DNA from: a virus
Reading direction: 5' to 3' (one strand)
DNA: 36,000 bases
Virus record (IMG/VR): IMGVR_UViG_3300021960_008364
Coordinates: 1 to 36,000 of that record
The notes beneath the pieces were generated by a model. That model had not been told where the DNA came from and did no database searches. It saw only the letters and a list, made by a program, of their open reading frames with translations. A program made the translations under genes and the position numbers. Of this stretch, positions 3,311 to 32,192 are shown in pieces. How positions within the stretch are numbered: position 1 is the stretch's first letter; each line of letters begins with the position of its first letter.

Positions 3311-3319
3311 TTAACTTCC

Positions 3320-5975: not shown

Positions 5976-5985
5976 TTAATGTTCC

Positions 5986-7158: not shown

Positions 7159-7173
7159 TGATATCTGCTCCTA

Positions 7174-10100
7174 TTATGCCGCTACTGATCCGCCGTTTAG
7201 ACACCAACCAGTTCCATCCCAAACACAACTAAATGCGCCTGCAAAAACGCCGCCAATTGTGTCTAATCTCCAAGCATGTGCTGTTCTTAATTCTGTTGCG
7301 CCGTTACCTAGTGTTACTTTTGCGTTTGACACTATAATATCACTATATGTTGATGTAGTCACACCTGATTTATAAAACCAAAGTTCTTGTCCTACATAAG
7401 TGCCATTTCCTAGGGTATAGTCTACACCGCTTGTGATAAAGTGATTGCGTTTTGTAATATCAATAGCGCCGGTGATATTATTGGTTTCGTGTGAACTGGT
7501 TGAAATAGTCGAACTATTAAATCTTAGTTCGTCGCCGCTCCTACTAATTGGATATTCAATTGGATTTTGTGGATCGCTATCGTCAACAAACTTAATACTA
7601 TTATCACTTACATATAAGTCACGGATTTTAAATTCAGCACTACCAATATCATATGTGTCATTGGTATCTGGAATAATGTGTGTGCTTAGGTTACCGTTTA
7701 AGTAAGTTGCTACATTGCTGTCGCCATAACTGGTGCCGCCTACGCCACCTGGGCTTGCATCAACCCATTGACTGCTAGTACCATCATTGTAGTAAACCTT
7801 AAGTCTACCTGCATCGCTTTCCCACCATAGATCGCCTACAGATGGTGAGGTTGGTGCGGTATCACTAATAGTTACATTGGCTCCGCCGCCACCGCTACTA
7901 ATGTTTCCTGGTACCCATTTACCATTTGGATTATCCCAAATCAAACCTTGGCCATTTGTTGGTGGAGCTGATGTTGTGTCTACATCACTAAGGGCATTAA
8001 TACTAATAGTATTCAAATTACTAGCTGTTACTGATGTTAAGTAACTGCTGAGGTCGGGTGGGGTATATGTAAACTCGCCTGTGATATTATTATATGAAAG
8101 TCCACCGCTGGCATTTGCTACTGCATCAGGCCCAACACTTAGGTCTCCTAGTGCGATAAAATTAGTAATACTTGCGGTTGTTGCATAACCAGTTAGATCT
8201 GGTGGAGTGTAACTAAACACCCCGGTTACGTTATTGTATGTTAATGCGGCTGTTCCAGCTGGCGCTGTTTGTACACTTAGATCTGTTAGTCCAATGTTTC
8301 CGCTTTGTGCTACCCAAGCATAGTCTGTGCCTGTCCAACTTAGTACTTCGTTGTTACCCGCTGTACCTGTGTTTAGATGTGTATCAACATCACTGTTAGC
8401 GTAGTGTGCTAAATCGCTGATTTGACTTTCAGTAATAGTTAATGCCGCTTGGTGTTGTGTAACACTACTTTCAGTGATGTTTACATCTGGAACATTTGCC
8501 CAGGTAACTGCACTTGTTAGATCATTTGTTTCTGTAAAGCTAGTTAAGAAACCAGTTAAATCTGGCGGAGTATATGTAAACACACCATTGGCATCATTGT
8601 ATGTTAGTGTTCCTGTTCCTGCGGCCACAGCCTGTGTAACACTGAATGAATCCAGTGTAGCTGATGCAGGTGGGGTAAATGTAAACACACCTGTTGTATT
8701 ATCGTATGCTAAACTGCCTGAGCCGCTAGCGGCAATAGTAATTGCGCTGATGTCAGTGAGTGCGATACCACTGCCTGCGCCACCACTTGCTGTGCCCCAA
8801 CTTAGTGTGCCGGCACCGTTTGTACGTAAAAACTGTCCAGCGGCACCATCTGCCGGAGGCAATTCCCAAACAGTGTTTACGCTGTCTACGTTAACAGGTG
8901 CTTTGAACCCAATATAATTAGATCCATCGCCATCATAAAAACGTAATTCACTTGGATGAGTAAGTTCTACATGATCGCTAATTTGTAATGTTCTATCACT
9001 TGCAATGTGTAAGATTGCTGTTGATGAATTTGCGGCATCTTTGTCCATGGTAATCCATGGAGTGCTCATGCTAGTTTTGTAAATACCAAAATGTGATCGA
9101 GCATCAACGCCTGGGTTACTTCCTCTAGTAGAATCACCAGCAGACCAATTCCATGTTATTAATGCTTCGTCTCCTAGTTCAGTTGCTCCGCTATTAATAG
9201 TTTGTGTAACATCACCATAAGCAATAGCAATAGAACCGGTATTTGTGATATCTGCTTGATTACCAACATGTAACCAAACACCTGGGTTGTTGTTATTAAT
9301 ACCTGTAAAGTCACTGAGTACAATCTCGCCTGAGCCGTTTGCGTTGATAGTAATACCACCGTCTTGATTATCTACGCCAAGTGTGTTATTTGTAAATGTA
9401 AAGTTACCAACGGTGTTTGTAGATTCTACATCACCGGGTATCCACACACTGTTTGCATTATCCCAAACCAATGCCTGTCCGTCTGTAACTCCTGTGGTGT
9501 CTACATCACTTAACGCTGTAATGCTTGCCGCGGCAATTCTTGCATCTGCACGAACATCTGTGTAATATAAGTTTGTACCTTCTGCTAAATCTGTTGTTGT
9601 TTTATTTGCTAGACTTAGGTTAGCACCTACTTGTAGTGCAATACGTGCATCTGCTCTTGCATCTGTATAATATAAATTTGTACCTTCTGCAACATCTGTT
9701 GTTGACTTAGCGGCTAATCTAGTATCAAATCTTGTATCAGTGTAATATAAATTTGTACCTTCTGCAACATCTGTTGTGGACTTTGTTGCTAGGCGTGTGT
9801 CAAAATCTACGTTTGCTCTTGTTGTGGTATAGTATAGGTTACCGTTCTCAGCAATGTCGCCAGTGTCTAGTACAACAGCGCCTGTAGCACCATTGACGCT
9901 GGTTACGGCTTGTGCGGTTGCTGTAAAGCTGATGACACCTGTGTTTGCATCATATGCTAAATCGCCGCCAGCACTGATTGCGGCTCTCGCTCTAGCATCT
10001 GTATAGTATTTGTTTGTGCCTTCTGCAAGATCGTCTGTGTTATGATTGCTAATATCGCTTACTGTACCAGTTACATTACCAACTACTGCACCTGTGTGGG

Positions 10101-11823
10101 TACCTGCGGTATCACCAGTTACATTTCCTGTTACATTTCCTGTAACATTGCCGGTTAGTGTACCGGTAAATCCGCTGGCTGTGGATACACCTTTATTGAA
10201 TTCCCAACGATCTGTTCCGCTTGCGTATGCTATTTGTGCGTCTGCGCCAGCAACGTGTAGGCCTGAACCGTTTGCACTGGCAGCATCTTGTGCGCCTTCT
10301 GCAACCGTAATCATTTTGTCAGCAACAGCAAGTGTGGTGCTGTTTACTGTGGTTGTTGTTCCATTAACTGTTAGGTCACCGCTGATAGTTAGATTATTAA
10401 ATGTTCCGTCTGCGGTTGTATCTAGTCCAATAACACCCGAAGTGCTGTTGTAGGTTACACCTGTGCCTGCGCTAAGTGCCTGTCTTGCTCTAGCATCAGT
10501 GTAGTATAAATTGGCGCCTTCAGTTAGATCAGCTGTTGTCTTGGTTGCTAATCGTGTATCAAAATCTGCGTTTGCTCTTGTTGTGGTATAGTATAAGTTT
10601 GTACCTTCTGCAAGATCTGTTGTTGTCTTGTTTGCAAGGCTTAGGTTTGTGCCTGTAGCGGCGGCAACTCTAGCATCAGCTCTTGCGTCTGTGTAGTATA
10701 AGTTTGTTGATCCTTCAGCAAGTGCGTCTGTGTTGTGATTGCTAATATCGCTTACTTGACCAGTTACGTTACCAGTTACATTACCAGTTACATTACCAGT
10801 TACATCTCCAAGTAGATCACCTGTTACATTACCAGAAACATTACCAACTACTGCACCTGTGTGGGTACCTGTGGTATCACCAGTTACGTTACCAGTTACG
10901 TTACCAGTTACGTTACCAGTTACGTTGCCGGTATGTGTGCCTGTGGTATCACCTGTTAGTGGACCAGTGATAGCAGTAAATACGCCAGTGCTTGGAGTAT
11001 TAGCACCTATAGCTGTACCGTCAATAGCACCGCCGTTAATGTCAACAGTTGTGAATGTTGATGTGCCACCTGAAGTAACATTACCTAATACATTACCTTG
11101 AAGTGTTCCAACAAGATCAAACGCGGCATTTTGTACAGTTGCTCCATTTAGATTTAATGTACCACTAAATGTGCTTGTTCCAGCAGAAGTAATGTTTCCA
11201 ACAACATCGCCGTTGTGGATACCCGTGGTATTACCAGTTAGGTCTCCAGTTACATTACCTGTTAGGTTACCAGTTACATTACCTGTTAGGTTACCAGTTA
11301 CATTGCCAGTTAGATCTCCAACAAAACCAACGGTGGCTGTGATTGTTCCACCGCTAAGGTTGCCACTGAGACTACCATTTATACTGGAAATTTGATTTTG
11401 TAAATTTGCAAATTCGTTATTGTGTTTTGTTTCTAGTGCAGAGATTTGTCCAATTATTGTACCAGCAAAATTAGCATCATCTTGTATTGCCGACGCGATT
11501 TCATTTAGTGTATCTAGTGCGGCTGGAGCACCATCAATCAAACTGTTTAGTGCATCTGCTACTTTGGTGTCAACTTCTGCCTCAGTTACTGCATTAACAC
11601 TTGCAATAAGTCCATCTACATATCCTGTGCTTGCGGCACCAGAAATATCATTTACTGCTAAATCAATCGCCCCTGTTCGTCCTGCTACACTTGCTACTGG
11701 CGCAGAACTGACGACGACAAATTCACCGTTTTCTATTTGTGTAAAGTTAGCATTGATTTTGTCAAATGCTACTTTTAATGAGTCGCCGCTACCGGCCGCT
11801 GTACTAACTGATTCAAAAGGCAT
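7174..11823 (-). CDS. Giant repeat-rich tail fibre (1549 aa)
   Basis: The N-terminus (STAAGSGDSLKVAFDKINANFTQIENGEF) resembles the attachment motif of the 325-aa fibre. A predicted helical segment (~70-145) is followed by long blocks of TGNVTGNVTGD repeats, and then several copies of a module reading AEGTNLYYTDARADARI (or YTTTRANADFDTRL), common in phage fibre shafts. Later blocks repeat LTDLSV...YNNTTGVFSYTPPDL and ALSDVDTTG...QALVWDNANSVW. The tip ends AGAFSCVWDGTGWCLNGGSVAA. Low-complexity shaft with a distinct tip fits a long host-recognition fibre. The gene heads a minus-strand late block, 15 nt before the next fibre gene. A degenerate late box lies 35 bp upstream. Confidence 0.9.
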   Translation of the reverse strand: MPFESVSTAAGSGDSLKVAFDKINANFTQIENGEFVVVSSAPVASVAGRTGAIDLAVNDISGAASTGYVDGLIASVNAVTEAEVDTKVADALNSLIDGAPAALDTLNEIASAIQDDANFAGTIIGQISALETKHNNEFANLQNQISSINGSLSGNLSGGTITATVGFVGDLTGNVTGNLTGNVTGNLTGNVTGDLTGNTTGIHNGDVVGNITSAGTSTFSGTLNLNGATVQNAAFDLVGTLQGNVLGNVTSGGTSTFTTVDINGGAIDGTAIGANTPSTGVFTAITGPLTGDTTGTHTGNVTGNVTGNVTGNVTGDTTGTHTGAVVGNVSGNVTGDLLGDVTGNVTGNVTGNVTGQVSDISNHNTDALAEGSTNLYYTDARADARVAAATGTNLSLANKTTTDLAEGTNLYYTTTRANADFDTRLATKTTADLTEGANLYYTDARARQALSAGTGVTYNSTSGVIGLDTTADGTFNNLTISGDLTVNGTTTTVNSTTLAVADKMITVAEGAQDAASANGSGLHVAGADAQIAYASGTDRWEFNKGVSTASGFTGTLTGNVTGNVTGNVTGDTAGTHTGAVVGNVTGTVSDISNHNTDDLAEGTNKYYTDARARAAISAGGDLAYDANTGVISFTATAQAVTSVNGATGAVVLDTGDIAENGNLYYTTTRANVDFDTRLATKSTTDVAEGTNLYYTDTRFDTRLAAKSTTDVAEGTNLYYTDARADARIALQVGANLSLANKTTTDLAEGTNLYYTDVRADARIAAASITALSDVDTTGVTDGQALVWDNANSVWIPGDVESTNTVGNFTFTNNTLGVDNQDGGITINANGSGEIVLSDFTGINNNNPGVWLHVGNQADITNTGSIAIAYGDVTQTINSGATELGDEALITWNWSAGDSTRGSNPGVDARSHFGIYKTSMSTPWITMDKDAANSSTAILHIASDRTLQISDHVELTHPSELRFYDGDGSNYIGFKAPVNVDSVNTVWELPPADGAAGQFLRTNGAGTLSWGTASGGAGSGIALTDISAITIAASGSGSLAYDNTTGVFTFTPPASATLDSFSVTQAVAAGTGTLTYNDANGVFTYTPPDLTGFLTSFTETNDLTSAVTWANVPDVNITESSVTQHQAALTITESQISDLAHYANSDVDTHLNTGTAGNNEVLSWTGTDYAWVAQSGNIGLTDLSVQTAPAGTAALTYNNVTGVFSYTPPDLTGYATTASITNFIALGDLSVGPDAVANASGGLSYNNITGEFTYTPPDLSSYLTSVTASNLNTISINALSDVDTTSAPPTNGQGLIWDNPNGKWVPGNISSGGGGANVTISDTAPTSPSVGDLWWESDAGRLKVYYNDGTSSQWVDASPGGVGGTSYGDSNVATYLNGNLSTHIIPDTNDTYDIGSAEFKIRDLYVSDNSIKFVDDSDPQNPIEYPISRSGDELRFNSSTISTSSHETNNITGAIDITKRNHFITSGVDYTLGNGTYVGQELWFYKSGVTTSTYSDIIVSNAKVTLGNGATELRTAHAWRLDTIGGVFAGAFSCVWDGTGWCLNGGSVAA
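9570..10740. repeat. Imperfect repeats encoding NLYYTDAR modules
   Basis: About eight imperfect copies of a DNA block containing GTACCTTCTGC followed by A/C-ATCTGTTGTTG encode the A-E-G-T-N-L-Y-Y-T modules of the giant fibre. Spacing varies and G-N-V-T blocks interrupt the series. Confidence 0.7.
10759..10806. repeat. 12-bp tandem repeat in giant fibre
   Basis: Four near-identical copies of ACCAGTTACATT encode T-G-N-V repeats on the minus strand. Confidence 0.9.
10879..10926. repeat. 12-bp tandem repeat, four perfect copies
   Basis: Four exact head-to-tail copies of ACCAGTTACGTT. It differs at one base from the unit at 10759, so each array looks internally homogenised. Confidence 0.92.
11246..11293. 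repeat. 24-bp tandem repeat, two perfect copies
   Basis: Two exact copies of a 24-bp unit (a CCAGTTACATTA half followed by a CCTGTTAGGTTA half), followed by a partial third copy. It encodes alternating G-N-V-T and G-N-L-T turns. Confidence 0.88.
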
Positions 11824-11858
11824 CTCTGGTTCATTCCTAAATTGGTATACTTATACAC

Positions 11859-11866
11859 TATTTAGC
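11859..11866 (-). promoter_or_regulatory. Possible degenerate late box (GCTAAATA) before giant fibre
   Basis: On the minus strand GCTAAATA differs at one position from NATAAATA and lies 35 bp before the ATG of the giant fibre, in the only intergenic gap (58 bp) upstream of it. Confidence 0.4.
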
Positions 11867-11881
11867 AAGTTTAGAATGAAC

Positions 11882-12208
11882 TTAACCGCAAGAGAAGCTA
11901 GATCCGCAACTACAACTGCTATTAGCATTAGGATTATCAATGCTAAAACTGTAGCCACCAAATTCTTCTACAAAATTAATGGTACTGCCTAATAGGTATA
12001 ATTGACTCATGCGATCAACAATGATTTCAATACCATTGCTTTCAAACACATCGTCGTTGTCTGTTTTTTCTTCGTCAAGGTCAAATCCGTATTGAAATCC
12101 TTGACAACCGCCCCCGTTAATAAAAACACGTAATCTTGCTTGGGGTTTGTTTTGTTCAAGTTTTAATTCAGATATTCTCTGAACTCCAAGTTCGTTAATT
12201 TCAATCAT
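11882..12208 (-). CDS. A-type Fe-S cluster carrier (IscA/ErpA/HesB family)
   Basis: 108 residues, usual family length. The three cluster-binding cysteines stand at family positions: Cys35 in GGGCQGF, Cys99 and Cys101 in SCSCG; an extra Cys107 follows. A-type carriers hand [Fe-S] clusters to apo-enzymes in the cytoplasm. Its start overlaps the preceding small gene by 8 nt, making it the last gene of the six-gene unit with IF-1 and SOD. A radical SAM enzyme in the same window is a possible client, as are host Fe-S proteins. HesB-like genes occur in marine T4-like phages. ErpA versus IscA cannot be separated by eye. Confidence 0.93.
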   Translation of the reverse strand: MIEINELGVQRISELKLEQNKPQARLRVFINGGGCQGFQYGFDLDEEKTDNDDVFESNGIEIIVDRMSQLYLLGSTINFVEEFGGYSFSIDNPNANSSCSCGSSFSCG

Positions 12209-14688: not shown

Positions 14689-15150
14689 ATGCCAAAAATG
14701 ATTAAAATTACTCTATCCCGTCCTTCAACGGACGTCAATTGGGGTATTGCTGATGAAATGGGTCTTAGCGATGAGCTAATGACTTCGTATAACCTAATGC
14801 GTAGTAAAATTAACTACGATGCCGCTACCCCAGGCAGTTACACTTCACAATCAGTATTTAACTCCCCAGATGATTTACATATGGAACGTTATTATCTGTT
14901 TAATGACTATCCATCAAACAACGGCGGTACTACCCCTGCAAACCTAGCACAATGGTTTTGGAAAGCAAGAAGAGCCGCTGACAGCGAACACATTGGTGAT
15001 GTTACTGTTAATTCAACTAATCCACTAACCAACGAAGCCATGTCTTACAAATATAATAAATTTCAAGAATGGATGCGTAATTGGAGAGCTAGTAACGGTA
15101 TTAAACCAATCAGCTACGAAGAAGTAGATCACACTTTTCCAACTGAATAA
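14689..15150 (+). CDS. Unknown 153-aa protein, paralogue of preceding gene
   Basis: A ribosome site (CGGAG, 11 nt) precedes ATG 14689. N- and C-terminal motifs are shared with the 14208 product, but a middle stretch (residues ~20-110, with WFWKARRAADSEHIGD) differs. The late box upstream points to late expression, perhaps as a minor virion or assembly protein. No family recognised. Confidence 0.82.
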   Translation: MPKMIKITLSRPSTDVNWGIADEMGLSDELMTSYNLMRSKINYDAATPGSYTSQSVFNSPDDLHMERYYLFNDYPSNNGGTTPANLAQWFWKARRAADSEHIGDVTVNSTNPLTNEAMSYKYNKFQEWMRNWRASNGIKPISYEEVDHTFPTE

Positions 15151-15167
15151 GGAAACACAAGACTAAA

Positions 15168-15365
15168 ATGTCTGATACTTTTTTATGTGCTAAATCAGGA
15201 CGCATTATAGGTGCTGAACGAGCTTTAGGAGACGGTTTTGTTATAGATCCAGATTTCCTACCTTCATGCGATTGTCAAAATATATGTAAGATAAAAAAAG
15301 AGGAGTCGAATGACTCCTCTTTTCACGTAAACTCTAAGCCTGATTACTTAGACAGCTTCGCCTGA
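15168..15365 (+). CDS. Doubtful small protein reading through a terminator
   Basis: 65 residues from ATG 15168. The first ~40 residues look protein-like (CAKSGRIIGAERALGDGF, then a CDCQNIC cysteine group). However, the frame continues through a perfect 12-bp terminator hairpin (15296-15323) and over the 3' end of the opposing gene. The ribosome site is weak (AAGGA about 14 nt away). It may be real with transcripts antiterminated late, a remnant, or not expressed. Confidence 0.42.
   Translation: MSDTFLCAKSGRIIGAERALGDGFVIDPDFLPSCDCQNICKIKKEESNDSSFHVNSKPDYLDSFA
15296..15323. terminator. Bidirectional intrinsic terminator
   Basis: Perfect 12-bp stem AAAAGAGGAGTC / GACTCCTCTTTT with loop GAAT; A- and T-runs on both sides let it work for the converging plus and minus genes. 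Confidence 0.88.
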
Positions 15366-15620
15366 TTGTGCTAGAGCACGATAACCTGCCGCAATAACAC
15401 GACGGGTTGGTGTACCTAAACGATACTTCTGGGTAACACGACCCTTAGTATCTTTATGAGTGTTTAGGTAAATTGGATAACCCTTCATACGCAGTGCTGA
15501 AACAGTAGCACTTGGATTACCAACCTTAAATCGAGCACGGATCTGCTTGCCCGTTAGGCGCTCACCAGCGGTTAGCGCATCCAGGACCTTGTCCTGCTTA
15601 GTTAGAGTTACTTCTGACAT
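15348..15620 (-). CDS. Small helix-turn-helix DNA-binding protein
   Basis: 90 residues from ATG 15620, which has AAGGAGACATTTT directly upstream; a longer frame exists but would lie inside the 5' UTR of the promoter at 15675-15702. Residues 10-50 form a winged-helix-like unit (DKVLDALTAGERLTGKQIRARFKVGNPSATVSALRMKGYPI), and the C-terminus is basic. Likely a small phage transcription regulator; its target is unknown. Its own promoter overlaps the end of the upstream gene, and the bidirectional terminator lies 25 bp past its stop. Confidence 0.82.
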   Translation of the reverse strand: MSEVTLTKQDKVLDALTAGERLTGKQIRARFKVGNPSATVSALRMKGYPIYLNTHKDTKGRVTQKYRLGTPTRRVIAAGYRALAQSGEAV

Positions 15621-15674
15621 AAAATGTCTCCTTCTTTTGATGTTTTGCTTTAGAGTGTTCCAAAGCAATAATAC

Positions 15675-15702
15675 ATTATACACTATCTAAACTGTTTGTC
15701 AA
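15675..15702 (-). promoter_or_regulatory. Sigma70-like early promoter
   Basis: Minus strand TTGACA (15697-15702), 16 bp, TATAAT (15675-15680), consensus at both boxes. It drives the HTH gene at 15620 and overlaps the 3' end of the 15683-16033 gene. Confidence 0.82.
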
Positions 15703-16033
15703 CATCTTTTTTCACACAAATGAACCCTAGTTTGTCCAAATCTTCTATTATGGTTGGATCTAATTTGCCCTCTTCGCCGTTGCAATAAAAGTCCATGTAG
15801 TCATATTGTTCTTCACTAGCACTAAGCCTAGCCACTAGTTCGCCTGCATAACGCCAGCTACAACTCCATATCTCTTCTTTGAGCAACGGAATTGGATGCT
15901 TTGCAGTCCATTCCGTGTTACATAATGCACCATAGAGCTTGTTACGATAGTCATGGTCAACCCGGCACTTCTCTTGTATGCTCTTGCTCATCAACAGATG
16001 GTACTCAAGATCATTGGTGGTATCAAATTCCAT
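15683..16033 (-). CDS. Unknown 116-aa acidic protein
   Basis: Start placed at ATG 16033, 7 nt after an AGG; an in-frame TTG at 16054 would add seven residues. Soluble, rich in Tyr, Glu and Leu (LVARLSASEEQYDYMDFYCNGEEGKLDPTIIEDLDKLGF). The end reads VKKDVDKQF. No family recognised. Probably transcribed with the ligase group. Confidence 0.7.
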   Translation of the reverse strand: MEFDTTNDLEYHLLMSKSIQEKCRVDHDYRNKLYGALCNTEWTAKHPIPLLKEEIWSCSWRYAGELVARLSASEEQYDYMDFYCNGEEGKLDPTIIEDLDKLGFICVKKDVDKQFR

Positions 16034-16059
16034 ATTCATACCTGTATAAATCAATGAAA

Positions 16060-16491
16060 TTATTTGTTTAATTCTACAGAGCCGTTGTCCTTAACATCAA
16101 AGTTAATGGTATCTCCAAACTTGAGTTCCATTTGTGCGGAAATTTCGTGTGGGATAGTTAAAACAGTTTCGCCATCTGCATCCTCAACGAGATGAACAGT
16201 GTACGCACCGTCCGCAGTTTTGGCCACGTTTTCTTGAACGTAGGGCTCTACATTGGTCACATTTGCGATCTTAAAGCTACGCCAAGCCTGTGACTCCAAG
16301 GAATAAACACTTAGGTTTTCCATCTGCTTGGGAGACAGGGTTTTGGTTCCTTTTGGCTTTTCAGATTCTGGGATATAGCTTTCTACCAGTGTGCAGGGCA
16401 TTACACGCTCTTCACCGTTGACTTTGGTAAAAGTAACAGTGTGTGTTCCAGAGCGCAAAAGGTCTTGTAGTTGTTCACGAGTGTAGTTCAT
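16060..16491 (-). CDS. Two-part small protein: SH3-like (DUF2693-like) plus AbrB-like hairpin
   Basis: 143 residues from ATG 16491 (AAGGA 9 nt upstream; ATGA overlap with the previous gene). Residues ~20-80 carry VTFTKVNGEERVMPCTLVESYIP and LSVYSLESQAWRSFKIANVTNV, the pattern of small phage beta-barrel proteins of the DUF2693 kind. Residues ~105-143 (VLTIPHEISAQMELKFGDTINFDV) resemble one swapped-hairpin AbrB/SpoVT unit. A nucleic-acid-binding regulatory role is possible but not shown. Confidence 0.72.
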   Translation of the reverse strand: MNYTREQLQDLLRSGTHTVTFTKVNGEERVMPCTLVESYIPESEKPKGTKTLSPKQMENLSVYSLESQAWRSFKIANVTNVEPYVQENVAKTADGAYTVHLVEDADGETVLTIPHEISAQMELKFGDTINFDVKDNGSVELNK

Positions 16492-16715
16492 TGTGTATTT
16501 CCTTTTTCTAAAATCCATTCAATTTGTTCATCTATTGCGTATCTAGCGCCTTCGATGTAATCCTTGTCTTCTTCGGACAAAACTGACCAGAACTTGCTGA
16601 CTTGAGAAATCATGTTCTGAACTTCGTCGGGGTGTTTTAGATGGTAGTTGCCTTCCATCCAATGTTGCACAATATTCATACGAGTATTAATAATCTGTCG
16701 AATACTAGTACCCAT
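16488..16715 (-). CDS. Unknown 75-aa helical protein
   Basis: Starts at ATG 16715, overlapping the ligase stop by one base (TAATG), and ends by ATGA overlap with the next gene. Mostly helical (FWSVLSEEDKDYIEGARYAIDEQIEWI). No known motif. Coupling to the ligase suggests joint expression in DNA metabolism. Confidence 0.75.
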   Translation of the reverse strand: MGTSIRQIINTRMNIVQHWMEGNYHLKHPDEVQNMISQVSKFWSVLSEEDKDYIEGARYAIDEQIEWILEKGNTQ

Positions 16716-18019
16716 TACAACTTCTCTCCCAGTTCAAATCCACGGAAGGTTTTAAATCTTGGGAACCTCAACGAATACGTTCCATCTTGGTTTTGGGTAA
16801 CAGCATCTGCTCGGATTTCAACCATTTGTCCCACCACAGAATTCCTATTAGCCCAAATATCAATACGCATACTATCAGTAAGACCGGAACCGACATTAAC
16901 GGTAATATTTTTCCCGTCGTCTTCTCCGTTGCAAACCAGAGCTCCAAGTCTTCCTTCGTTTTTTCCTGTTCCTTCTTCGACATCAATAACTTCCAATGAA
17001 ACTTCAATAAACGGCTTTTGCTTTAGCCAAGCATGGCTACGCTTAGTTTCGTATACTGCATCAGGATCTTTGATCATAATACCTTCATAACCTTCGTTAA
17101 TTGCACGAGTATTAATCTCACTAAACTGTTCCTGACCTTGTTCAGTATTTAAATCAATGGGCACATAACCTAAGATCTCTACGTTTGGCAGATTATCAGC
17201 AATGTGCTTGTACCAATTTTGCAGTGTTTGGCTACGCTCAAGTTGAGTATGCTTGCCTGTGCCACGTTTGAACTCTTCCAAACTCAAGATATCAAACAAA
17301 TGTAGTACAGCATCGTTTGCTTCTACGTTGTCTTTTCTATGCACCTGCTTCATGAGATCTTGAAAACTAGAACTCATAACTTCTCCGTCTAGCACTGTAG
17401 GCACTGCAAACAATCGAGCAATACGACTTATTTGTTGTTTAATATGTTCAAAGTTGTGTAGCTCTTTGCCATTACGGCTGTATTGGTTAACGGTACCATC
17501 CGGATATACAATAGTAATAACACGTACCCCATCCAACTTAACTTCAACCAGTTTCTTACCTGCAACTTTCTTTTCGTGGTTAGCACCATCGTGTGCAAGT
17601 TGGCAAGAAAAGACCGGAACTTCGTATGCTCGGTTGATCTTTTTAACTACGTTGTTAATGGTCTTTTCGCTAACACCACACCGTAAGTCTTTGATGAGAA
17701 TACGTCTATACCAACCATCCCATTCTTCAGCAGTTGCTTTCATACGCAAGAAGCCAATAGCACTCAGTGCGTCATTGCCGGTAAGCTCACGTTTTGCAAG
17801 TTTTTCAGCGGTATCCCAAAACGTTTGTGATTTGAGTCCGGAGCCACTAGCACCTGTTGGAACTTGCTTAACACCAAACGTAATCATGCTGTCTAGTGCC
17901 CAGCGAGCACCTGTAAAAAACTCTAGGTTGCCTGCTTCAGCTTCACGTTTGATGATTGCTTCTTTAGCAAGACGACTGTTGTCACTTTCTAGTTCTTGTG
18001 TAATCTGCCACGGGGTCAT
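16715..18019 (-). CDS. ATP-dependent DNA ligase (T4 gp30-like)
   Basis: 434 residues; T4 gp30 has 487. Nucleotidyltransferase motifs occur in order: motif I KLDGVR with nucleophile Lys161, motif III VLDGEV (~209-214), motif IV YEGIMIK (311-317), motif V WLKQKP (331-336), then an OB-fold region ending GTYSLRFPRF. An N-terminal helical domain (1-150) is present as in T4-type ligases. It seals nicks during replication and repair in the cytoplasm using ATP. It follows a small membrane protein by 3 nt and is driven by the early promoter at 18272-18300. Complete, with no missing motif. Confidence 0.95.
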   Translation of the reverse strand: MTPWQITQELESDNSRLAKEAIIKREAEAGNLEFFTGARWALDSMITFGVKQVPTGASGSGLKSQTFWDTAEKLAKRELTGNDALSAIGFLRMKATAEEWDGWYRRILIKDLRCGVSEKTINNVVKKINRAYEVPVFSCQLAHDGANHEKKVAGKKLVEVKLDGVRVITIVYPDGTVNQYSRNGKELHNFEHIKQQISRIARLFAVPTVLDGEVMSSSFQDLMKQVHRKDNVEANDAVLHLFDILSLEEFKRGTGKHTQLERSQTLQNWYKHIADNLPNVEILGYVPIDLNTEQGQEQFSEINTRAINEGYEGIMIKDPDAVYETKRSHAWLKQKPFIEVSLEVIDVEEGTGKNEGRLGALVCNGEDDGKNITVNVGSGLTDSMRIDIWANRNSVVGQMVEIRADAVTQNQDGTYSLRFPRFKTFRGFELGEKL

Positions 18020-18413: not shown

Positions 18414-18878
18414 ATGGCAAACTTTAAGTTAAAGTCTACATACATTGCTGAAGATGCTGTTCATTTTCCTAATAATATCACAGACCCTGCTATTCGTTCA
18501 ATCATTGATGCTCGCAACGAACCTATTAGGGTTTTAATCCAGGCATTTGACAACAACGATAGTCCAAATACTGTTCCAGTGAGAATTCCAGCAGAACAGA
18601 CTACACTTGACGACGGTCGGGTACAGTTGGTTAATGGTTGGACAGGATTTGAATCGCAAACTGAAGCAGTTACTTTTGCACAACATGCTGTTAAACAAGC
18701 CGCGGGCCAAGCCGATCTTGTAGCATATTGGATTGCTAATAACGTAAGATGTAAGATTGTAGTCACAGACGACAACGATAATGAAATTCAAGTGTTACAG
18801 GATAATACTCATCTAGACCGTCACACAGTTAACGGTTACATTGAAAACCCAGACGATCCATTTTTCGTCGAAGCGTAA
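18414..18878 (+). CDS. Unknown 154-aa protein, probably late
   Basis: AAGGAG 9 nt before ATG. Acidic, soluble, with a beta-rich start (MANFKLKSTYIAEDAVHF) and a middle segment TEAVTFAQHAVKQAAGQADLVAYWIANN. The C-terminus is Asp-rich (VVTDDNDNEIQ, NPDDPFFVEA). No family recognised. The late box suggests a virion or assembly role. Confidence 0.8.
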   Translation: MANFKLKSTYIAEDAVHFPNNITDPAIRSIIDARNEPIRVLIQAFDNNDSPNTVPVRIPAEQTTLDDGRVQLVNGWTGFESQTEAVTFAQHAVKQAAGQADLVAYWIANNVRCKIVVTDDNDNEIQVLQDNTHLDRHTVNGYIENPDDPFFVEA

Positions 18879-18889: not shown

Positions 18890-19012
18890 ATGCGGGGAAT
18901 TGTACAAACCCGCATAAATAATACAGCAGGATCTTGCTATAAACTCCCCACATTTCAGATACTAGTCAACTCGTGATGTGGAATATAGATCCCGCATAAT
19001 ATGTACATATTA
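18890..19012 (+). promoter_or_regulatory. Structured leader before the DctP-like gene
   Basis: This 147-bp gap contains several possible pairings. TGCGGG at the start can pair with CCCGC nearby (~18909) or with the distal CCCGCA (~18991). CCACAT and ATGTGG flank a 21-nt loop. A perfect 16-bp palindrome TAATATGTACATATTA (18997-19012) abuts the AAGGAG ribosome site. Either an operator or an RNA that controls access to the ribosome site is possible; no known riboswitch class recognised. Confidence 0.4.
18913..18920 (+). promoter_or_regulatory. Late-type box CATAAATA
   Basis: CATAAATA on plus, 105 bp before the DctP-like start, implying a ~95-nt leader. Confidence 0.55.
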
Positions 19013-19025
19013 AGGAGAAAGTAAA

Positions 19026-19982
19026 ATGACACAAGTTGAAACCCTAAAACTTACATGGGTTCTAGCGCACGTTCCTTACGATCTATTCCTTCGTTCAGCT
19101 AATGCTTTTTCAAAGGCAGTTAGTGAGAAGACAAACGGTCGTATTGAAGTCGAAGTCCTAGGTAAGAATGAGTGGCAGGACAAATACAACGGTGGCAAAG
19201 AAATTGGCAACCGTGGTTTCCTAAAGCTAATGGAAGAAGGCAAAATTGGCATGACACAGACCTATTCAACAGTACTAGGTCTACTAAATGACGATTTCTA
19301 TTCACTAGATATGCCATTCCTATTTGAGAATCATGACCATGCGGCACGTGTTCTAGACGGTCCAGTAGGTGATTATCTACTAGACAGCCTAACAACAACA
19401 AGTGGTGCAAAAGGTCTAGCTTTCACATACTCAGGTGGTTATAAGATGATGGCTGTTAACAAAAACGTTCACAGCATTGCAGACCTAAAGGGTATGAAAG
19501 TACGTTGCGGTACAAGCCCAGTTTCCGAAGCAACATTCCGTGCAGTTGGTGCAGACACAGTGCCAATGGGCGTTGATGGTTTTGCTCAGTCAGTTGCAAT
19601 GGGCGAGTGCGAAGGCGGTGAAAACGTGTTCCCACGTTATTTCCGTTCAGCAGTCAACACCGTTACAGACACAGTTGCTGATACAGAGCATGCATTGTTC
19701 CTAACAAGCATCGTAATCAGCAATAAGATTTGGGAATCACTAAGCGCAGAAGACCAAGCAATCCTAGCAGAATCTGCTAAGATCGCCGCAGTTGAAGAGC
19801 GTAAAGAATCTCTAATCGACGGTGCTGCCGCTAAGTCACGTGCTCAAGAAGAAGGTATCCAAGTTATTGAATGGGCACCTGAAGCAGTTGAAGAATTTAA
19901 AGCCGCTGTTAGCTCAGTTTACACTGAGTTTGATGGCTACTTCAGCCGTGACCTAGTTAGTGAAATTAAAGCACAACGCTAA
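19026..19982 (+). CDS. TRAP-transporter solute-binding protein (DctP-like), no signal peptide
   Basis: 318 residues. Family pattern is clear: LAHVPYDLFLRSANAFSKAVSEKTNGRIEVEV, FYSLDMPFLF, Arg160 in LKGMKVRCG (the Arg that binds a carboxylate in this family) and GECEGGEN near 193-200. Normally the protein is periplasmic and delivers C4-dicarboxylates or other organic acids to DctQM. Here it begins MTQVETLKLTWVLAH with no signal peptide, and an in-frame stop at 19011-19013 rules out an upstream extension. DctQ and DctM are absent. AAGGAG precedes the ATG by 9 nt. It may be cytosolic, act as a ligand sink, or be part of the virion. The late-type box upstream supports late expression. Confidence 0.9.
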   Translation: MTQVETLKLTWVLAHVPYDLFLRSANAFSKAVSEKTNGRIEVEVLGKNEWQDKYNGGKEIGNRGFLKLMEEGKIGMTQTYSTVLGLLNDDFYSLDMPFLFENHDHAARVLDGPVGDYLLDSLTTTSGAKGLAFTYSGGYKMMAVNKNVHSIADLKGMKVRCGTSPVSEATFRAVGADTVPMGVDGFAQSVAMGECEGGENVFPRYFRSAVNTVTDTVADTEHALFLTSIVISNKIWESLSAEDQAILAESAKIAAVEERKESLIDGAAAKSRAQEEGIQVIEWAPEAVEEFKAAVSSVYTEFDGYFSRDLVSEIKAQR

Positions 19983-20003
19983 TCACTAGCTAATAGACAA
20001 AAT

Positions 20004-20032
20004 AAAAGCCCGGGTTTTTGCCCGGGCTTTTT
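20004..20032. terminator. Strong bidirectional terminator
   Basis: Stem AAAAGCCCGGG / CCCGGGCTTTT with a T-rich 6-nt loop, between the converging DctP-like and Bug-like genes. Confidence 0.93.
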
Positions 20033-20049
20033 CTTGGAAAGTTTTAGAG

Positions 20050-20967
20050 TTACTTAAACCAACCTTTAACAGTACCAATGAGCTTGTCAAATGTACCTGG
20101 CTCGTCTGTTTTCCAGTAGTACTCATAAACGTTGTTAACGTGACTGTCTACTACCTTAACATCGTCTGCGGTAATACCTGAGTTCTTTGTATCACTGAAT
20201 CCGTTAAATGCAATACCGTCTAAGAACTTGGTGTTCTTACCCGCATCTGCAACAGCCTTTGCCATTGCTGAATCTTCAGTGTTGGTATGAATCATCTGAA
20301 TGATTGGAAGTGTTGGAACCTTTAGTCCTGGCAGAGCGGCACCAATAAAGTTTTTAGCGGCTGGATCGTAATCGTATACACATTCAATCTTGCCTTCTTT
20401 AAGTGGGCTGTTAACTACACCAGCACCAATAATTCCATAGTCAACATCACCTGCTAGTACAGCGGCTAGCACTGTCTTTGAACCTGAGTACGGAACACCG
20501 ATCAACTTGCGCTTGCCACCATTTAAATCATCAAATAGACCTTTTGAAAGGATAACACTTGCAATACCAACTGTGGTATCTGTTTCACCAAATGTCTTGG
20601 TGCTACCTGGTAAACGACAGAACTTCAAATAGCTCTTGGTGATTAGTGAAGTGTTTTCTGCTGTGGCGTTGTAGTCACATCCAATACCTTTTGCAAGACT
20701 TGCAATACGCACGTCTGCGTTAAACACCATAACAGCGTTCTTTGTTGAGCTATACTTCTTGTCAGCGTCTGCACAACTTGAAGCCTGATAAAACTCAACG
20801 TTAAATTGATTCTGTTGCTTAAGAGCTTCTTCATAGCTTTTAGCAAAAACTGTAGCTGGGCTAGCTTTGTTACTAGGGTTAACTACTGTAATAGTATCCT
20901 TAGCAAATGCGGCTGTAGACACCAATGCCGCGGTTAACAACGCGGCAGTAAAAATAGATTTCTTCAT
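20050..20967 (-). CDS. Bug/TctC-like periplasmic solute-binding protein
   Basis: 305 residues from ATG 20967 (AAAGGAAACTTC then ATG). Residues 1-22 form a classic Sec signal peptide (MKKSIFTAALLTAALVSTAAFA), cleaved before KDT. The segment LIGVPYSGSKTVLAAVLAGDVDYGIIGAG matches the VPYxG...GxVD pattern of Bug/TctC proteins, which bind tricarboxylates or other small acids for tripartite tricarboxylate transporters. Two Cys pairs may form disulfides. It starts 14 nt after the TctA-like gene, the operon partner expected. Divergence is high, so the ligand cannot be named. Confidence 0.82.
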   Translation of the reverse strand: MKKSIFTAALLTAALVSTAAFAKDTITVVNPSNKASPATVFAKSYEEALKQQNQFNVEFYQASSCADADKKYSSTKNAVMVFNADVRIASLAKGIGCDYNATAENTSLITKSYLKFCRLPGSTKTFGETDTTVGIASVILSKGLFDDLNGGKRKLIGVPYSGSKTVLAAVLAGDVDYGIIGAGVVNSPLKEGKIECVYDYDPAAKNFIGAALPGLKVPTLPIIQMIHTNTEDSAMAKAVADAGKNTKFLDGIAFNGFSDTKNSGITADDVKVVDSHVNNVYEYYWKTDEPGTFDKLIGTVKGWFK

Positions 20968-20981
20968 GAAGTTTCCTTTGC

Positions 20982-22286
20982 TTAGAAATTGATTGCTACA
21001 AATTGCATTGTAGTCCAAATAAGTTTATCACCAAACATAGTTCCAAAAATAAACAGTATGGGATTAATTCTAAAGTATTTAAGCACAAAGCCAAAGGCAG
21101 TAAAAAAAAGTAATAGAATGGTATACAGCCATATGGGCGTTTCGTTTACACTCATATCTATTAGAACCATTGCACCAACGATTATGAATAAGAGATATGA
21201 ACTCTTGCTGTATAAGAATCTAACTATTGCTACATAGGTGTCAATGAAACGTGTGCTGAGCAAGAAATAAAATACTGTAGCGATACCAGCAATCAGTATC
21301 ACAACATCAAACACATTTAACTGCGGCACAAAATTACTGGCTTGTCCTACAAACTCTACAACGTCTACGTTCTTAACATCTAAGACTGTTGAAATAATCA
21401 GTGCGCTGGCTGTGATAGGCACTCCCATAGTAAAGAACGGCAACAGCATCATTACCACACCTGGGTTGTTTGCTGTTTCTGCTCCAACAATCTGTTGGAA
21501 CCGTCCTTTCTTTTTGTGAGCATGATATGCTAGAGCTGATGCTGTTTCTGCGGCTGGTCCTGGTACTAGACCACTAAACAATCCAATCACCGTACTCTTG
21601 GCAATAGTCCACCAACTAGCAGTCTTATCACGACGTGCTTCAAAGTGTTCACGTGTGATGTGTTCTAATTTCACACGGTCCATTACCAAATCTGGTATCA
21701 ACATCATGCTAGCAATCAACATAAAGAAGCTGGTGTTTTCAAAGAAGATTTGTATTTGATACCACCAAGGCGGAAGTGCAAAGTTATTCACAGGGCCTAA
21801 AAATGTTCCCAAGGCTAGTAGCAGTATTGCAATGACAGGTCTACGATCAGTGAACGCAAACAGTGCAATTACAATCGCAAACATACCAAGCACAAAGTTT
21901 ACACTAGCCAGCATGTTACTGTAGTCACTTAACCAATGATATGCTAACCAAACAACACCTAGTGCTACCATACCAGCAAACAAACTACCTTTAGCCGTGT
22001 GGTAGAGTAGGTAGTTGCGTTCAGTTAAACTCATACCTTTGAGGCTATTGATGTAGACCAAGGCACTGGCTTCGCCTGGTATGCCCAAGGTAATGGTGCT
22101 AACACTACCAAAGAACTGACTACCAATAGCGGCAGTAGCCCAAAACACTAATAAGAGTTCAGGTGTCCATACAGGGTGCAGTGCATAAACAACAAACCCT
22201 GCAAAATATATAGGAAATACGGAAAACAGTCCTAGGGCTATTCCAACAACTAGCCCTAGGAGACCCACCATTGCTAGTTCTAACAT
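20982..22286 (-). CDS. TctA-like permease of the tripartite tricarboxylate transporter family
   Basis: 434 residues from ATG 22286, slightly shorter than the ~500 typical of TctA. About ten or more hydrophobic spans. Both family signatures are present: GSVSTITLGIPGEASA (~60-75) and GLVPGPAAETASALAY (~239-254) followed by GAETANNPGVV and PFFTMGVPITASA. TctA is the large inner-membrane subunit moving citrate-like carboxylates with H+ or Na+. A Bug-like binding protein follows. The small TctB subunit is not seen in this window. No Shine-Dalgarno precedes the ATG; a promoter-like box ends 6 nt before it, suggesting a leaderless message. Confidence 0.9.
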   Translation of the reverse strand: MLELAMVGLLGLVVGIALGLFSVFPIYFAGFVVYALHPVWTPELLLVFWATAAIGSQFFGSVSTITLGIPGEASALVYINSLKGMSLTERNYLLYHTAKGSLFAGMVALGVVWLAYHWLSDYSNMLASVNFVLGMFAIVIALFAFTDRRPVIAILLLALGTFLGPVNNFALPPWWYQIQIFFENTSFFMLIASMMLIPDLVMDRVKLEHITREHFEARRDKTASWWTIAKSTVIGLFSGLVPGPAAETASALAYHAHKKKGRFQQIVGAETANNPGVVMMLLPFFTMGVPITASALIISTVLDVKNVDVVEFVGQASNFVPQLNVFDVVILIAGIATVFYFLLSTRFIDTYVAIVRFLYSKSSYLLFIIVGAMVLIDMSVNETPIWLYTILLLFFTAFGFVLKYFRINPILFIFGTMFGDKLIWTTMQFVAINF

Positions 22287-22292
22287 CAATGG

Positions 22293-25994: not shown

Positions 25995-26022
25995 AGTATA
26001 ACACCAAAAATCTAGATGTCAA
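25995..26022 (-). promoter_or_regulatory. Sigma70-like early promoter
   Basis: Minus strand GG-TTGACA (26017-26022), 16 bp, TATACT (25995-26000). Its GGTTGA forms the Gly-stop of the lipase gene. Confidence 0.85.
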
Positions 26023-26807
26023 CCTCTAAGGTATAGGTCTAAAATTTTTTGAGCGTAACGATCTATACTGTGATCTGTGAATCCGCTAAAGGGTTGACCT
26101 TTTTTCCAAGCACGTTTACGAGCTCTCCACTGATCTTTGGCTTTTTGCCACCAAGTTAGTTTACGTATATTGCCATAGTAGTTGATATAGCAGAGCTTGC
26201 CGTGATGCCTAAATCCTAACAGTGCTGGCGGAACCTTAGGAACCACATCATTGTTGTTGACAAAGCGCCAGTGCCCTACACCATTGTTGGCTTGAACCCA
26301 ATTTGAGTTTCCAACACGAGGTGATCCAAATGTTATCAGCATAGGTTGTGCAACTGCACACATACGACTAGCACAGAGAGTAGCCATTGCTCCACCCAGG
26401 CTATGTCCTGTAATAAAAACATACTTGTCTTTTATTGGATAGTTTTCTACATGTTCCCAAAGTTTATTGAGCTCGTCGTAGAATCCGTCGTGTACCAAAC
26501 CGTTGGTCTTGCTTTTATGCTTCCATGCTTTGAGATCTGCGGCGATGTCGTTAAACTCTGTGGGTTGTGTTCCGCGAAATGCGAATACCACATAGTCTTT
26601 GTTTTCAACAATATGACATTCAGCATCGTTGTGTTCAATATATAAATGTTTGTTGAATCCAAGCTTCTTAAATAATGGCTTGGCTGTTTTTTCGTCTAGA
26701 TATGCCATGCGAGCACATTGCGCCATTACAGCCTGTTGGTAATTTGGATTATCCCAGTCTGTTATTTGCAGTGCCGAAATAGACTCCTTAATTGATAATA
26801 TCTCCAT
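26019..26807 (-). CDS. Class-3 lipase-like alpha/beta hydrolase
   Basis: 262 residues. VVFAFRGTQPTEFNDIAADL is the family's oxyanion-side motif; the nucleophile elbow is GHSLGG with Ser136; Asp187 in NNNDVVPKVPP and His246 in TDHSIDRY complete the triad. No signal peptide, so the enzyme should act inside the cell on host lipids or acylglycerols, or at lysis. GGAAG stands 9 nt before the ATG. It follows a lipoprotein gene by 24 nt and belongs to the group led by the nuclease gene. Substrate unknown. Confidence 0.9.
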   Translation of the reverse strand: MEILSIKESISALQITDWDNPNYQQAVMAQCARMAYLDEKTAKPLFKKLGFNKHLYIEHNDAECHIVENKDYVVFAFRGTQPTEFNDIAADLKAWKHKSKTNGLVHDGFYDELNKLWEHVENYPIKDKYVFITGHSLGGAMATLCASRMCAVAQPMLITFGSPRVGNSNWVQANNGVGHWRFVNNNDVVPKVPPALLGFRHHGKLCYINYYGNIRKLTWWQKAKDQWRARKRAWKKGQPFSGFTDHSIDRYAQKILDLYLRG

Positions 26808-27103: not shown

Positions 27104-29275
27104 TTACTTCTTTTTACTTACTGCTACTAATCTTGTATCATAACCGTCTGGTGTTATATCAGCTAGTTCTTTTTTTAATTCTTTGTCTAAATTATCTCTT
27201 TCTTCTTGGCTGTTTGCTTTTCTCATCATTTCTAGATATTCGTCAATTATTTTTTGTCTCAAATTTTCATCCGAGTACACTAGCCCTCTTGGATCGTTTT
27301 CTGGATCATAAGCAAAAAACTTGTTGTTTTCTCTGTCCCAGGCATATACATGAATACCAGGTTGTTTGCTTAACTTTTGCCACAGTATCTCACTTCCTTT
27401 GCTCTGATTATCATCACTTACAATATCATAACCTTTTTTCACAGCATAAGCATATAGCGGAACAGCAAGTCCTTTGCCTTGTATTTCAGGATCAAATTGA
27501 ACACTGCTGGTCCAAAAACCTTGATTTTTAGCCTGAGCAAAAGGAGAATCACGTTGTGTAAGTATTAACTCTCCCAGTGGTGCTTCGTCTTTCTTGATAA
27601 CAAACACATGATCTCCACCATCTGCTTCACTTTCTATAGATTTGTGTATATTATAATCGCCTAGTTTGCCAACCTTTTTTAATAGTTCATCATTATGATT
27701 CCAGTAGCGAACTTTACCCTTTGGAAAACCAGTCATGGATTGAATTTCTTTAATTTTCTTTTTGCCTGCCTTCATATTAGCACACCAATGATACATTTTT
27801 CCACGTTCACCGCTGTACTTTTTAGCTTTGGCTCGAAGATCAGCCACACTTCCTTTACAACTTGCGCCGGCACGTTTAACACGCCCTGGACGACTTTTAC
27901 CTTTTACCTTACCGTCGGCAAAGTTTTCTGCAAGGTTAGCAACCTCATCTGGAACCTTAAATGCCCACACAGTTGCTTGACCGTCTTGTGCCATCATAGC
28001 AGTAAGTCTTGTGTTACCGCCAATTAATTCTTTATAACCGTCGCTGTAAACAGCAACGATAGGCATTTCAATTATGCCTTTTTCAAGTTGTGCTAGAGCA
28101 CGTCTTTGTTTGTTTGGATCTAATGATTTAAAACTATCTGGATCTGCGGCATCTGTATTGTTAATATCTTTAGCACTTTTAATAGTAAATTCTTTACCCT
28201 TCTTGGCAAGTTTAATCCATGCCGCTTTCCCAATCTTTTGAAACTCTGGATAGCGTTCTGCTTCTTCCCATTCACTATTAAAATTTGGTTCTACAAATTT
28301 TTTACCATCAGCAACGGTTTCTTCTACAGGTTCTTGCATATGCTGTTTGATATTTTTAACCGTGCGCTCGAACTTGTGATCCTTGTGCTTAAATCCAACG
28401 CCGCCAGCGGCTTCCCATTTAGCAATGTTTTGTCCAAAGTCGTCAATTAGTATGTTTGGAGTGCCATCTGATTGTGTAGCATATTTTTCTTTATCATGTG
28501 TTATGATAACACGACTTGGGGGGAATACTTTTAGATACTTTTCGATCCATTCTCTTTTGTGAGGTTCTGAATTGGGATCATCGGGCAATGGAGCACTTAG
28601 TATACTATAACTGCCTTTTAGTTTTTTAATAAGTCCTAATAGCTTACCAGCATTTGGAGCAGGAGGAATATTCAACCAAAAATCTTTTGTATCACGTATT
28701 TTTTGCAATGCCGCAGGAATGTCCTTGCTATCAATTTCTCTCCAGTCTTTGCCAACCAGTTTTTTCCAACTGCCAAAAAAGTCTGCAAGCACACCATCCA
28801 TGTCTACAAACACTTGACTAGATTTTGATATGTCACTTAGTGCTTCTTCTAAGGTTTCAGTCTGACGTGGATAACGGATCATTGTTTCTCTAAAGCTAAA
28901 GTCTTTGTTGCGACCTTTGTTTGGTACAAAACCAAAACGCTTGTAGAACTTTTCAAGTCTACCTTTACTTCCACCAAACGCTGTATCAGGTGTTAGCGCA
29001 ATCATCTTTCCTTCGCTGTCTGCGATGTCAACAAGACGTTGCATAACCTGTGTGCCAATACCAAACCCACGCTCTTCTTTAGGCAGTACTATTTTGCTGA
29101 GAATGTAACCTGCTTGTGTATCATACAAGTCTAGGTCTAAACCTGGAAACTCTGCTTCTAAATCTGTAGACACAGATTCGCCGAGCTTGCCCCATAGCTT
29201 AGAAGCCATGTGTTTCTTAAACAACTTGTCTCGGTACTTGCTTCTTTCCGTTAGACTGTATTCACTGAATCTCAC
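27104..29275 (-). CDS. Multidomain fusion: GNAT, HAD nucleotidase-like, ParB-like, second GNAT-like
   Basis: 723 residues. Residues 1-137: GNAT acetyltransferase with the acetyl-CoA loop region EERGFGIGTQVMQRLV and EKFYKRFGF. Residues ~150-310: HAD fold of the 5'(3')-deoxyribonucleotidase kind, DMDGVLADF (Asp158, Asp160), SILSAP, and ILIDDFGQN. Residues ~400-445: ParB/Srx-like segment GGNTRLTAM. Residues ~455-510: a Lys/Arg-rich Cys-containing segment (GASCKGSVADLRAKAKKY). Residues ~550-640: second GNAT-like region (PEIQGKGLAVPLYAYAVKKG). Starts by ATGA overlap with the nuclease gene. A nucleotide- or nucleic-acid-modifying enzyme is possible; no single function can be stated. Confidence 0.82.
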   Translation of the reverse strand: MRFSEYSLTERSKYRDKLFKKHMASKLWGKLGESVSTDLEAEFPGLDLDLYDTQAGYILSKIVLPKEERGFGIGTQVMQRLVDIADSEGKMIALTPDTAFGGSKGRLEKFYKRFGFVPNKGRNKDFSFRETMIRYPRQTETLEEALSDISKSSQVFVDMDGVLADFFGSWKKLVGKDWREIDSKDIPAALQKIRDTKDFWLNIPPAPNAGKLLGLIKKLKGSYSILSAPLPDDPNSEPHKREWIEKYLKVFPPSRVIITHDKEKYATQSDGTPNILIDDFGQNIAKWEAAGGVGFKHKDHKFERTVKNIKQHMQEPVEETVADGKKFVEPNFNSEWEEAERYPEFQKIGKAAWIKLAKKGKEFTIKSAKDINNTDAADPDSFKSLDPNKQRRALAQLEKGIIEMPIVAVYSDGYKELIGGNTRLTAMMAQDGQATVWAFKVPDEVANLAENFADGKVKGKSRPGRVKRAGASCKGSVADLRAKAKKYSGERGKMYHWCANMKAGKKKIKEIQSMTGFPKGKVRYWNHNDELLKKVGKLGDYNIHKSIESEADGGDHVFVIKKDEAPLGELILTQRDSPFAQAKNQGFWTSSVQFDPEIQGKGLAVPLYAYAVKKGYDIVSDDNQSKGSEILWQKLSKQPGIHVYAWDRENNKFFAYDPENDPRGLVYSDENLRQKIIDEYLEMMRKANSQEERDNLDKELKKELADITPDGYDTRLVAVSKKK

Positions 29276-29757: not shown

Positions 29758-30354
29758 CTAGAGTGTACCTACTAGACTAGTATAATCATAGTTTGCCATG
29801 ATACCCCAACTTTGTGCCTGCCTTATATCGCTCGTATCTGCATCACGTACAACACGAAAAAAACTTGCGCCATTACGTAAATGAAACCTACTAACTGGGT
29901 CTTTGCGTGATTGCAAATACTTATTAACTTCGTCGTTGCTAGGCTTTTCGTCAAATACTTTTGTTAATGACGGAATAGGACTCATTGTTATAAAATGTTC
30001 AACTGTTGGAAATGCTTCTTTGATATAAGCAGCCGCACTCAGTATAAGCCAACCAGAACCATGTTTGGGAGATTCAATATGTGGGGTTTTAAAGACACTA
30101 TAAAAAATAGCAAATTTATGGTTGTCTGAGGCTGGCGTACTGTAAAATATCTGATCCATGGTGTCAGGTAATGTTGCTGTAAAAGCTACACATAAAACAT
30201 AGGTAGGATAATTATCTTCAATTTGAAAATAAATTTCTCTATCTTCAATACTGGTACGACGTTCATTCCATACTGTTGCTGGATGAACAGGATCAAATTT
30301 TAAGTTTTCTAGTAGGTCTCGATCAAAATCGGAATGGTTAGATCTGATTAGCAT
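29758..30354 (-). CDS. Malonyl-CoA decarboxylase-like catalytic domain
   Basis: 198 residues from ATG 30354 (one base after the upstream stop; an in-frame TTG at 30372 is less likely). It follows the C-terminal GNAT-fold domain of malonyl-CoA decarboxylase: PATVWNERRTSIEDREIYF, YVLCVAFTATLP, FAIFYSVF, a LSAAAYIKEAFPTVEHF helix, TMSPIPS with the catalytic-type Ser125, SRFHLRNGASFFRV with catalytic-type His158, and SWGIMANYDY. Full enzymes (~400-490 aa) carry an extra N-terminal helical domain, absent here. The reaction gives acetyl-CoA and CO2 from malonyl-CoA, which would lower fatty acid synthesis. Activity without the N-terminal domain is unproven. Confidence 0.85.
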   Translation of the reverse strand: MLIRSNHSDFDRDLLENLKFDPVHPATVWNERRTSIEDREIYFQIEDNYPTYVLCVAFTATLPDTMDQIFYSTPASDNHKFAIFYSVFKTPHIESPKHGSGWLILSAAAYIKEAFPTVEHFITMSPIPSLTKVFDEKPSNDEVNKYLQSRKDPVSRFHLRNGASFFRVVRDADTSDIRQAQSWGIMANYDYTSLVGTL

Positions 30355-30355
30355 T

Positions 30356-32158: not shown

Positions 32159-32163
32159 ATGTA

Positions 32164-32190: not shown

Positions 32191-32192
32191 AG

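Follow-up and report, generated by a model that had tools for sequence, protein, structure and literature searches.

A leaderless DctP-type solute-binding protein of T4-like phages with a possible cytosolic role during infection

The DctP-type receptors of TRAP transporters, such as SiaP, TeaA and PA0884/PA5167, are described as extracytoplasmic proteins. Phages carry solute-uptake genes as auxiliary genes, and PstS is a phage-borne example whose product is exported. Binding-protein folds are also used inside the cell, as MqnA is a cytosolic enzyme with such a fold. In TRAP receptors a conserved arginine acts as the carboxylate filter (PMC4646407). A tctA domain hit has been reported in SUP05 viral contigs, and a leaderless receptor is not among the genes reported there (PMC4164917). 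In cyanobacteria, the C-terminal receptor-like domains of NrtC and CmpC respond to substrate inside the cell and control the gating of an ABC transporter (PMC6603209, PMC11349869). Our literature search, in which subscription journals were scarcely covered, returned no description of a leaderless or phage-encoded DctP protein.

Here we describe LDctP, a DctP-type protein that lacks a signal peptide and is encoded in a 36,000-nucleotide stretch of viral DNA (the window). The window carries DNA ligase, tail-fibre and baseplate-type genes and, judged by its sequence, comes from a T4-like phage; from the T4-like gene content and the relatives described below, we infer that the phages carrying LDctP are marine. 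No tRNA or Rfam match was found in the window. The features discussed are collected in Table 1. The ATG of LDctP lies 13-15 nt downstream of an in-frame TAA, and the codons between them (GGA GAA AGT AAA) include no other start, so a start further upstream is impossible. The protein matches the Pfam profile PF03480 (DctP) with an E-value of 4.7e-50 and 171 bits against a gathering threshold of 23.4, and the match covers profile positions 14-283 of 286, beginning at residue 24. It scores 140.6 bits with NF037995, above the cut-off of 50, and 133.9 bits with the NCBI dctP subfamily model TIGR00787, below the cut-off of 175.05. In the AlphaFold model (mean pLDDT 94.5) the DctP fold is whole from about residue 3, and the chain opens directly with strand one of the mature domain. 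Its best match in the PDB is 4n8y_A (Z 37.7, rmsd 2.0, 297 residues). LDctP is assigned to phrog_31178, which PHROG labels 'unknown function'. The first-pass annotation had described a full DctP domain that begins directly with the mature domain and an in-frame stop that excludes an extension, and both descriptions are borne out. LDctP is a leaderless member of the DctP family: the fold, the profile match and the family arginine are there, and the export signal is absent.

Table 1. Coordinates of features in the window and in related viral contigs
Sequence	Feature	Coordinates	Strand	Basis or remark
Window	154-aa upstream gene	18414-18878	+	own ATAAATA box at 18375
Window	T4-type late box ATAAATA	18914-18920	+	112 nt upstream of LDctP
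Window	In-frame TAA	19011-19013	+	rules out N-terminal extension of LDctP
Window	Shine-Dalgarno AAGGAGA for LDctP	about 19012-19018	+	sequence; strong
Window	LDctP, leaderless DctP-type (PF03480) solute-binding protein, 318 aa	19026-19982	+	ORF call, ATG start
Window	GC-rich hairpin, T-runs either side	20003-20033	.	sequence
Window	TctC/Bug-like receptor	20050-20967	-	clear signal peptide (MKKSIFTAALLTAALVSTAAFA-KDT)
Window	TctA-type permease, 435 aa	20982-22289	-	PF01970, E 2.4e-33
Window	Class 3 lipase	26019-26807	-	PF01764, E 6.4e-23
Window	723-aa ORF, GNAT acetyltransferase and 5'-nucleotidase (NT5C) domains	27104-29275	-	
Window	204-codon ORF, malonyl-CoA decarboxylase C-terminal domain	29758-30372	-	PF05292, E 1.7e-21
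Window	ClpP-type protease	30517-31107	-	PF00574, E 4.4e-74
Window	Radical SAM/SPASM protein	31100-32206	-	adjoins ClpP-type protease
L002	Protein with SGGxDS	15530-16885		C-terminal chance match
L008	2OG-Fe(II) oxygenase-like gene	3725-4546		weak Pfam match
L020	Small membrane protein DUF2061	1050-1316		PF09834
L029	2OG-Fe(II) oxygenase-like gene	8972-9814		weak Pfam match
L031	Second, divergent leaderless copy	3222-4328		
L042	Second, divergent leaderless copy	3260-4339		
L062	Leaderless DctP copy over two overlapping ORFs	8974-9931		possibly broken
L062	Second, divergent leaderless copy	10993-11982		
L067	Second, divergent leaderless copy	14983-15939		
L196	TRAP operon	1567-7206		contig behind L002

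Relatives were taken from two viral-contig searches, and the best 80 of 115 qualifying loci (39-81% identity) together with the window gene make up the 81 genes, in 28 lineages (90% clusters), that are compared here. The hydrophobic leader is absent from the window protein and from all of these best 80 of 115 relatives, in each of which the shared WV[LI]AH motif is preceded by just a few residues. The relatives are free-standing proteins of 310-335 aa. A signal peptide is present in 73/73 bacterial homologues, and under one hydrophobicity scoring rule the phage maximum (1.51, 81 genes) lies below the bacterial minimum (1.93, 73 homologues). The comparison of homologous phage copies proposed in the first-pass annotation thus gave the same missing leader throughout, and phage homologues with a leader, which would have pointed to a frameshift in the window, were sought and not found inside the clade. 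A recent pseudogene or a mis-called start, with the leader frameshifted off or lying upstream, is suggested by nothing beyond the rarity of leaderless receptors. The in-frame stop, the lack of any other start, the same start in 81 genes and a dN/dS between phage relatives of 0.06-0.19 (about 0.13, indicating purifying selection) led us to reject this explanation, whose probability we regard as negligible.

In a careful tree, 37 leaderless phage proteins fall on a single branch (support 100/98), and a quick tree agrees in placing the leaderless phage proteins together and separate from phage DctP proteins with signal peptides. The nearest bacterial relatives found are two tandem genes of one genome (G583), whose scores of about 200 bits compare with 365-494 bits among full-length phage copies. 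Because both members of this pair have signal peptides, the simplest reading of the tree, whose root was not inferred, is that the phage clade lost the leader at its base. Draws of 398, 385 and 369 genomes, searched within set E limits, gave no leaderless DctP from bacteria, and the best bacterial hits whose N-terminus was read have leaders. These draws, together with a pattern-based genome scan whose patterns were drawn from the window's own subclade, leave room for rare prophage copies. The non-periplasmic use of the family that had been suggested is supported by a leader absence that is fixed across the phage clade, the location itself being a prediction. Cysteine content was tried as a marker of cytosolic location and dropped, as no difference was observed (p 0.16).

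Pocket residues are conserved. Arg160 of LDctP falls in the arginine column of the family, which holds an arginine in all 60 bacterial sequences and all 31 main phage copies compared, in agreement with the claim that the substrate-binding arginine is retained, and both Arg160 and Glu199 are invariant across the 31 main phage copies. Several contigs also encode second, divergent leaderless copies, and the conserved arginine is missing from 4/6 paralogues compared. Five further residues (His15, Glu43, Gln78, His103 and Arg204) are invariant or nearly so across the phage clade, and bacteria mostly have other residues at these positions. Residues that are invariant in phages and missing from bacterial receptors, in a protein without a leader and hence probably cytosolic, could mean that LDctP is an enzyme with a binding-protein fold; however, the fold search shows nothing apart from ordinary receptors and a catalytic motif was not recognised, so that we consider an enzyme to be improbable.

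In T4-like cyanophages the late promoter is NATAAATA (PMC2984593). The late-type box seen upstream of LDctP at the outset is confirmed, and L002 and L005 likewise have a late box upstream of the gene. ATAAATA occurs within 150 nt upstream of LDctP in 18/28 lineages; among other ORFs the count is 46/341 (p 7.5e-9), or 28/116 when only those with a free upstream region are included (p 9e-5). Before the other genes of the module it was found in 0/15 (TctC), 0/6 (TctA) and 1/31 (PP-loop) cases. LDctP is likely to be expressed late, as far as promoter sequence can tell, and since the box is on LDctP and not on the importer genes, the timing of its expression need not match that of the importer. The main rival reading follows from this enrichment: LDctP could be a late virion protein, packaged or on the particle, with a fold that is structural or binds a solute or the host surface. 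A virion protein needs no leader, and in two lineages (21 of the 81 loci) the gene does lie inside structural operons with head-closure, tail-sheath-stabilizer and terminase genes, either between the genes for the small and large terminase subunits or by the head-closure gene. These are only 2 of the 28 lineages, however; most place LDctP elsewhere, beside UvsX, DnaB and MazG or by transporter genes. Conservation of the pocket Arg and Glu would be needless in a structural role, and no virion family was matched, phrog_31178 being the sole assignment. We therefore hold a virion role to be unlikely, though it deserves weight.

In the window, LDctP is convergent with a TctC-like gene and a TctA gene, and the same layout is found in L002-L005. 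The first-pass annotation mentioned neither this facing pair (20050-22289) nor the family of which LDctP is a member. The hairpin between the convergent genes is read as their shared terminator, and a different hairpin occupies the same place in L002 and L005, where the 154-aa upstream gene also has counterparts, of 158 and 141 aa. The TctC-like protein has no Pfam match above cut-off and is labelled by resemblance and by the adjoining TctA, so the assignment is putative; the neighbour family at other loci (c9) is PF03401. A 130-aa neighbour of TctA was considered as a TctB subunit and rejected because it is not hydrophobic. DctQ and DctM are absent from the window, which has TctA instead, and the window thus lacks the TRAP component gene set. 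It also has no PP-loop gene, and sister-phage genomes do have such genes. The SGGxDS match in L002 was set aside as due to chance, in a protein related to the GNAT/NT5C ORF of the window. In that ORF the acetyltransferase and nucleotidase domains occur together. Elsewhere in the window, a Class 3 lipase is encoded in this T4-like phage, a ClpP-type protease gene adjoins that of a radical SAM/SPASM protein, and a malonyl-CoA decarboxylase C-terminal domain, which we take to be GNAT-like, is matched; PF05292 matches are also present in the phages behind L002 and L005.

Across the lineages, LDctP is found near genes for carboxylate transport and for PP-loop ATPases. TctC-like genes occur within two genes of LDctP in 14/28 lineages and none at five or more genes (p 2e-8), and PP-loop ATPases (SGGxDS) occur within two genes in 18/28 (p 9e-8). 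Transporter parts (TctC or DctP with signal peptides, TctA and sometimes full DctQM), PP-loop genes or both lie within three genes in 24/28 lineages. The positions and strands of these neighbours vary between lineages, and the association thus seems to have formed anew on several occasions. Among the points against a role in uptake and activation are the 4/28 lineages with neither type of gene near LDctP, the lack of a PP-loop gene in the window, the loss of the arginine in most paralogues, the separate late box and the fact that gene linkage in phages can also reflect shared ancestry. A DctP with a signal peptide and DctQM share an operon with LDctP in L031, L037, L042, L044 and L045, and the gene order DctQ, DctM, signal-peptide-bearing DctP, LDctP is found in L031/L037/L042/L045-type phages. 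The sister phage behind L002 (G001) has DctQ, DctM, DctP with a signal peptide, a PP-loop gene and TctA in a row elsewhere in its genome; a TctC match lies shortly after this row, and the phage encodes a second LDctP. On L196, the contig behind L002, the operon runs from a full TRAP transporter (DctQ, DctM and a signal-peptide-bearing DctP) to genes for a PP-loop ATPase and for a second TctA, with a fatty acid desaturase upstream. At other loci a small membrane protein (DUF2061) is encoded directly 5' of the leaderless gene (L020 and about 20 others), and 2OG-Fe(II) oxygenase-like genes adjoin it in L008 and L029.

Because these phages own external receptors with signal peptides, LDctP is not a stand-in for an absent receptor. 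Its place next to full importers equipped with an external receptor of their own, together with the cyanobacterial precedent, raises the reading that LDctP regulates the importer from the cytosolic side, as the NrtC/CmpC domains do. LDctP is not fused to any transporter subunit, however, the permease is not nearby in many lineages, and permeases of the TRAP and TTT types lack an ATPase that could be gated; a regulator is accordingly a rather remote prospect in our estimate.

The reading that we prefer, tentatively and with about as much doubt as belief, is that LDctP derives from a DctP-type receptor whose signal peptide was lost a single time, where the phage clade begins, and that its present site of action is the host cytosol during infection. 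The position of the gene beside phage acid importers and PP-loop enzymes, together with the missing leader, suggests that the probable ligand of the leaderless phage proteins is an organic acid within the infected cell. Judged from its sequence and gene context, LDctP is most likely a carboxylate-binding protein that works in the cytosol as part of an uptake and activation module carried by the phage. A phage importer (TctA/TctC here, DctPQM elsewhere) would bring the organic acid in, and LDctP would bind this small acid in the cytosol and may hold it, sense it or hand it over. In many lineages the neighbouring PP-loop enzyme would be the most likely user of the acid. The PP-loop proteins were identified solely by motif and fold search, with no identification by Pfam or PDB sequence searches. 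The nearest folds to the PP-loop model are asparagine, beta-lactam and carbapenam synthetases, and these matches are weak (E 2.5e-4, TM about 0.3); folds of the asparagine/beta-lactam-synthetase type adenylate carboxylates. At L019-L081 these T4-like phages each encode more than one divergent PP-loop ATPase (cluster c1); these proteins lack a glutaminase domain, and their genes often lie near one another in twos or threes. A more specific scheme, in which LDctP captures the imported carboxylate and presents it to the phage PP-loop enzyme for adenylation, converting an external acid to an amide or other modified product, is doubtful but conceivable.

Should the preferred reading be true, marine T4-like phages have evolved an intracellular solute-binding protein from a TRAP receptor, and a clade that keeps the pocket without an export signal would show the fold working intracellularly. 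The clade would also mark a group of uncultured phages with complete gene sets for secondary carboxylate importers, of both the TRAP and TTT types, which would give a firmer grip on host carbon uptake than the known single-gene cases. Among isolated phages, the collection searched holds no close relative of LDctP, just matches at 20-30% identity, several of them in bacterial-looking records, and no match for the TctC-like protein or for the PP-loop protein tested. In the viral structure library the LDctP model matches two partial, automatically named UniProt entries only, A0A6J7WKL0 and A0A6J7WI33 ('TRAP transporter solute receptor DctP/TeaA [uncultured Caudovirales phage]'), the identity being 32% and 45% across stretches of about 150-160 residues. 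Compared with the DctP-type TRAP receptors, LDctP is alike in its full-length domain, its fold and its carboxylate-binding arginine; it differs in that no fetched member of its clade has a signal peptide, in forming its own phage clade with its own invariant residues, and in usually having no DctQM alongside. The NrtC/CmpC domains are likewise receptor-like, on the cytosolic side and beside a normal external receptor, the location of LDctP being predicted; those domains belong to another SBP family and are fused to an ATPase, whereas LDctP is free-standing and phage-encoded. Phage PstS and the SUP05 tctA share with this locus a phage-borne role in solute uptake, and PstS, unlike LDctP, is exported.
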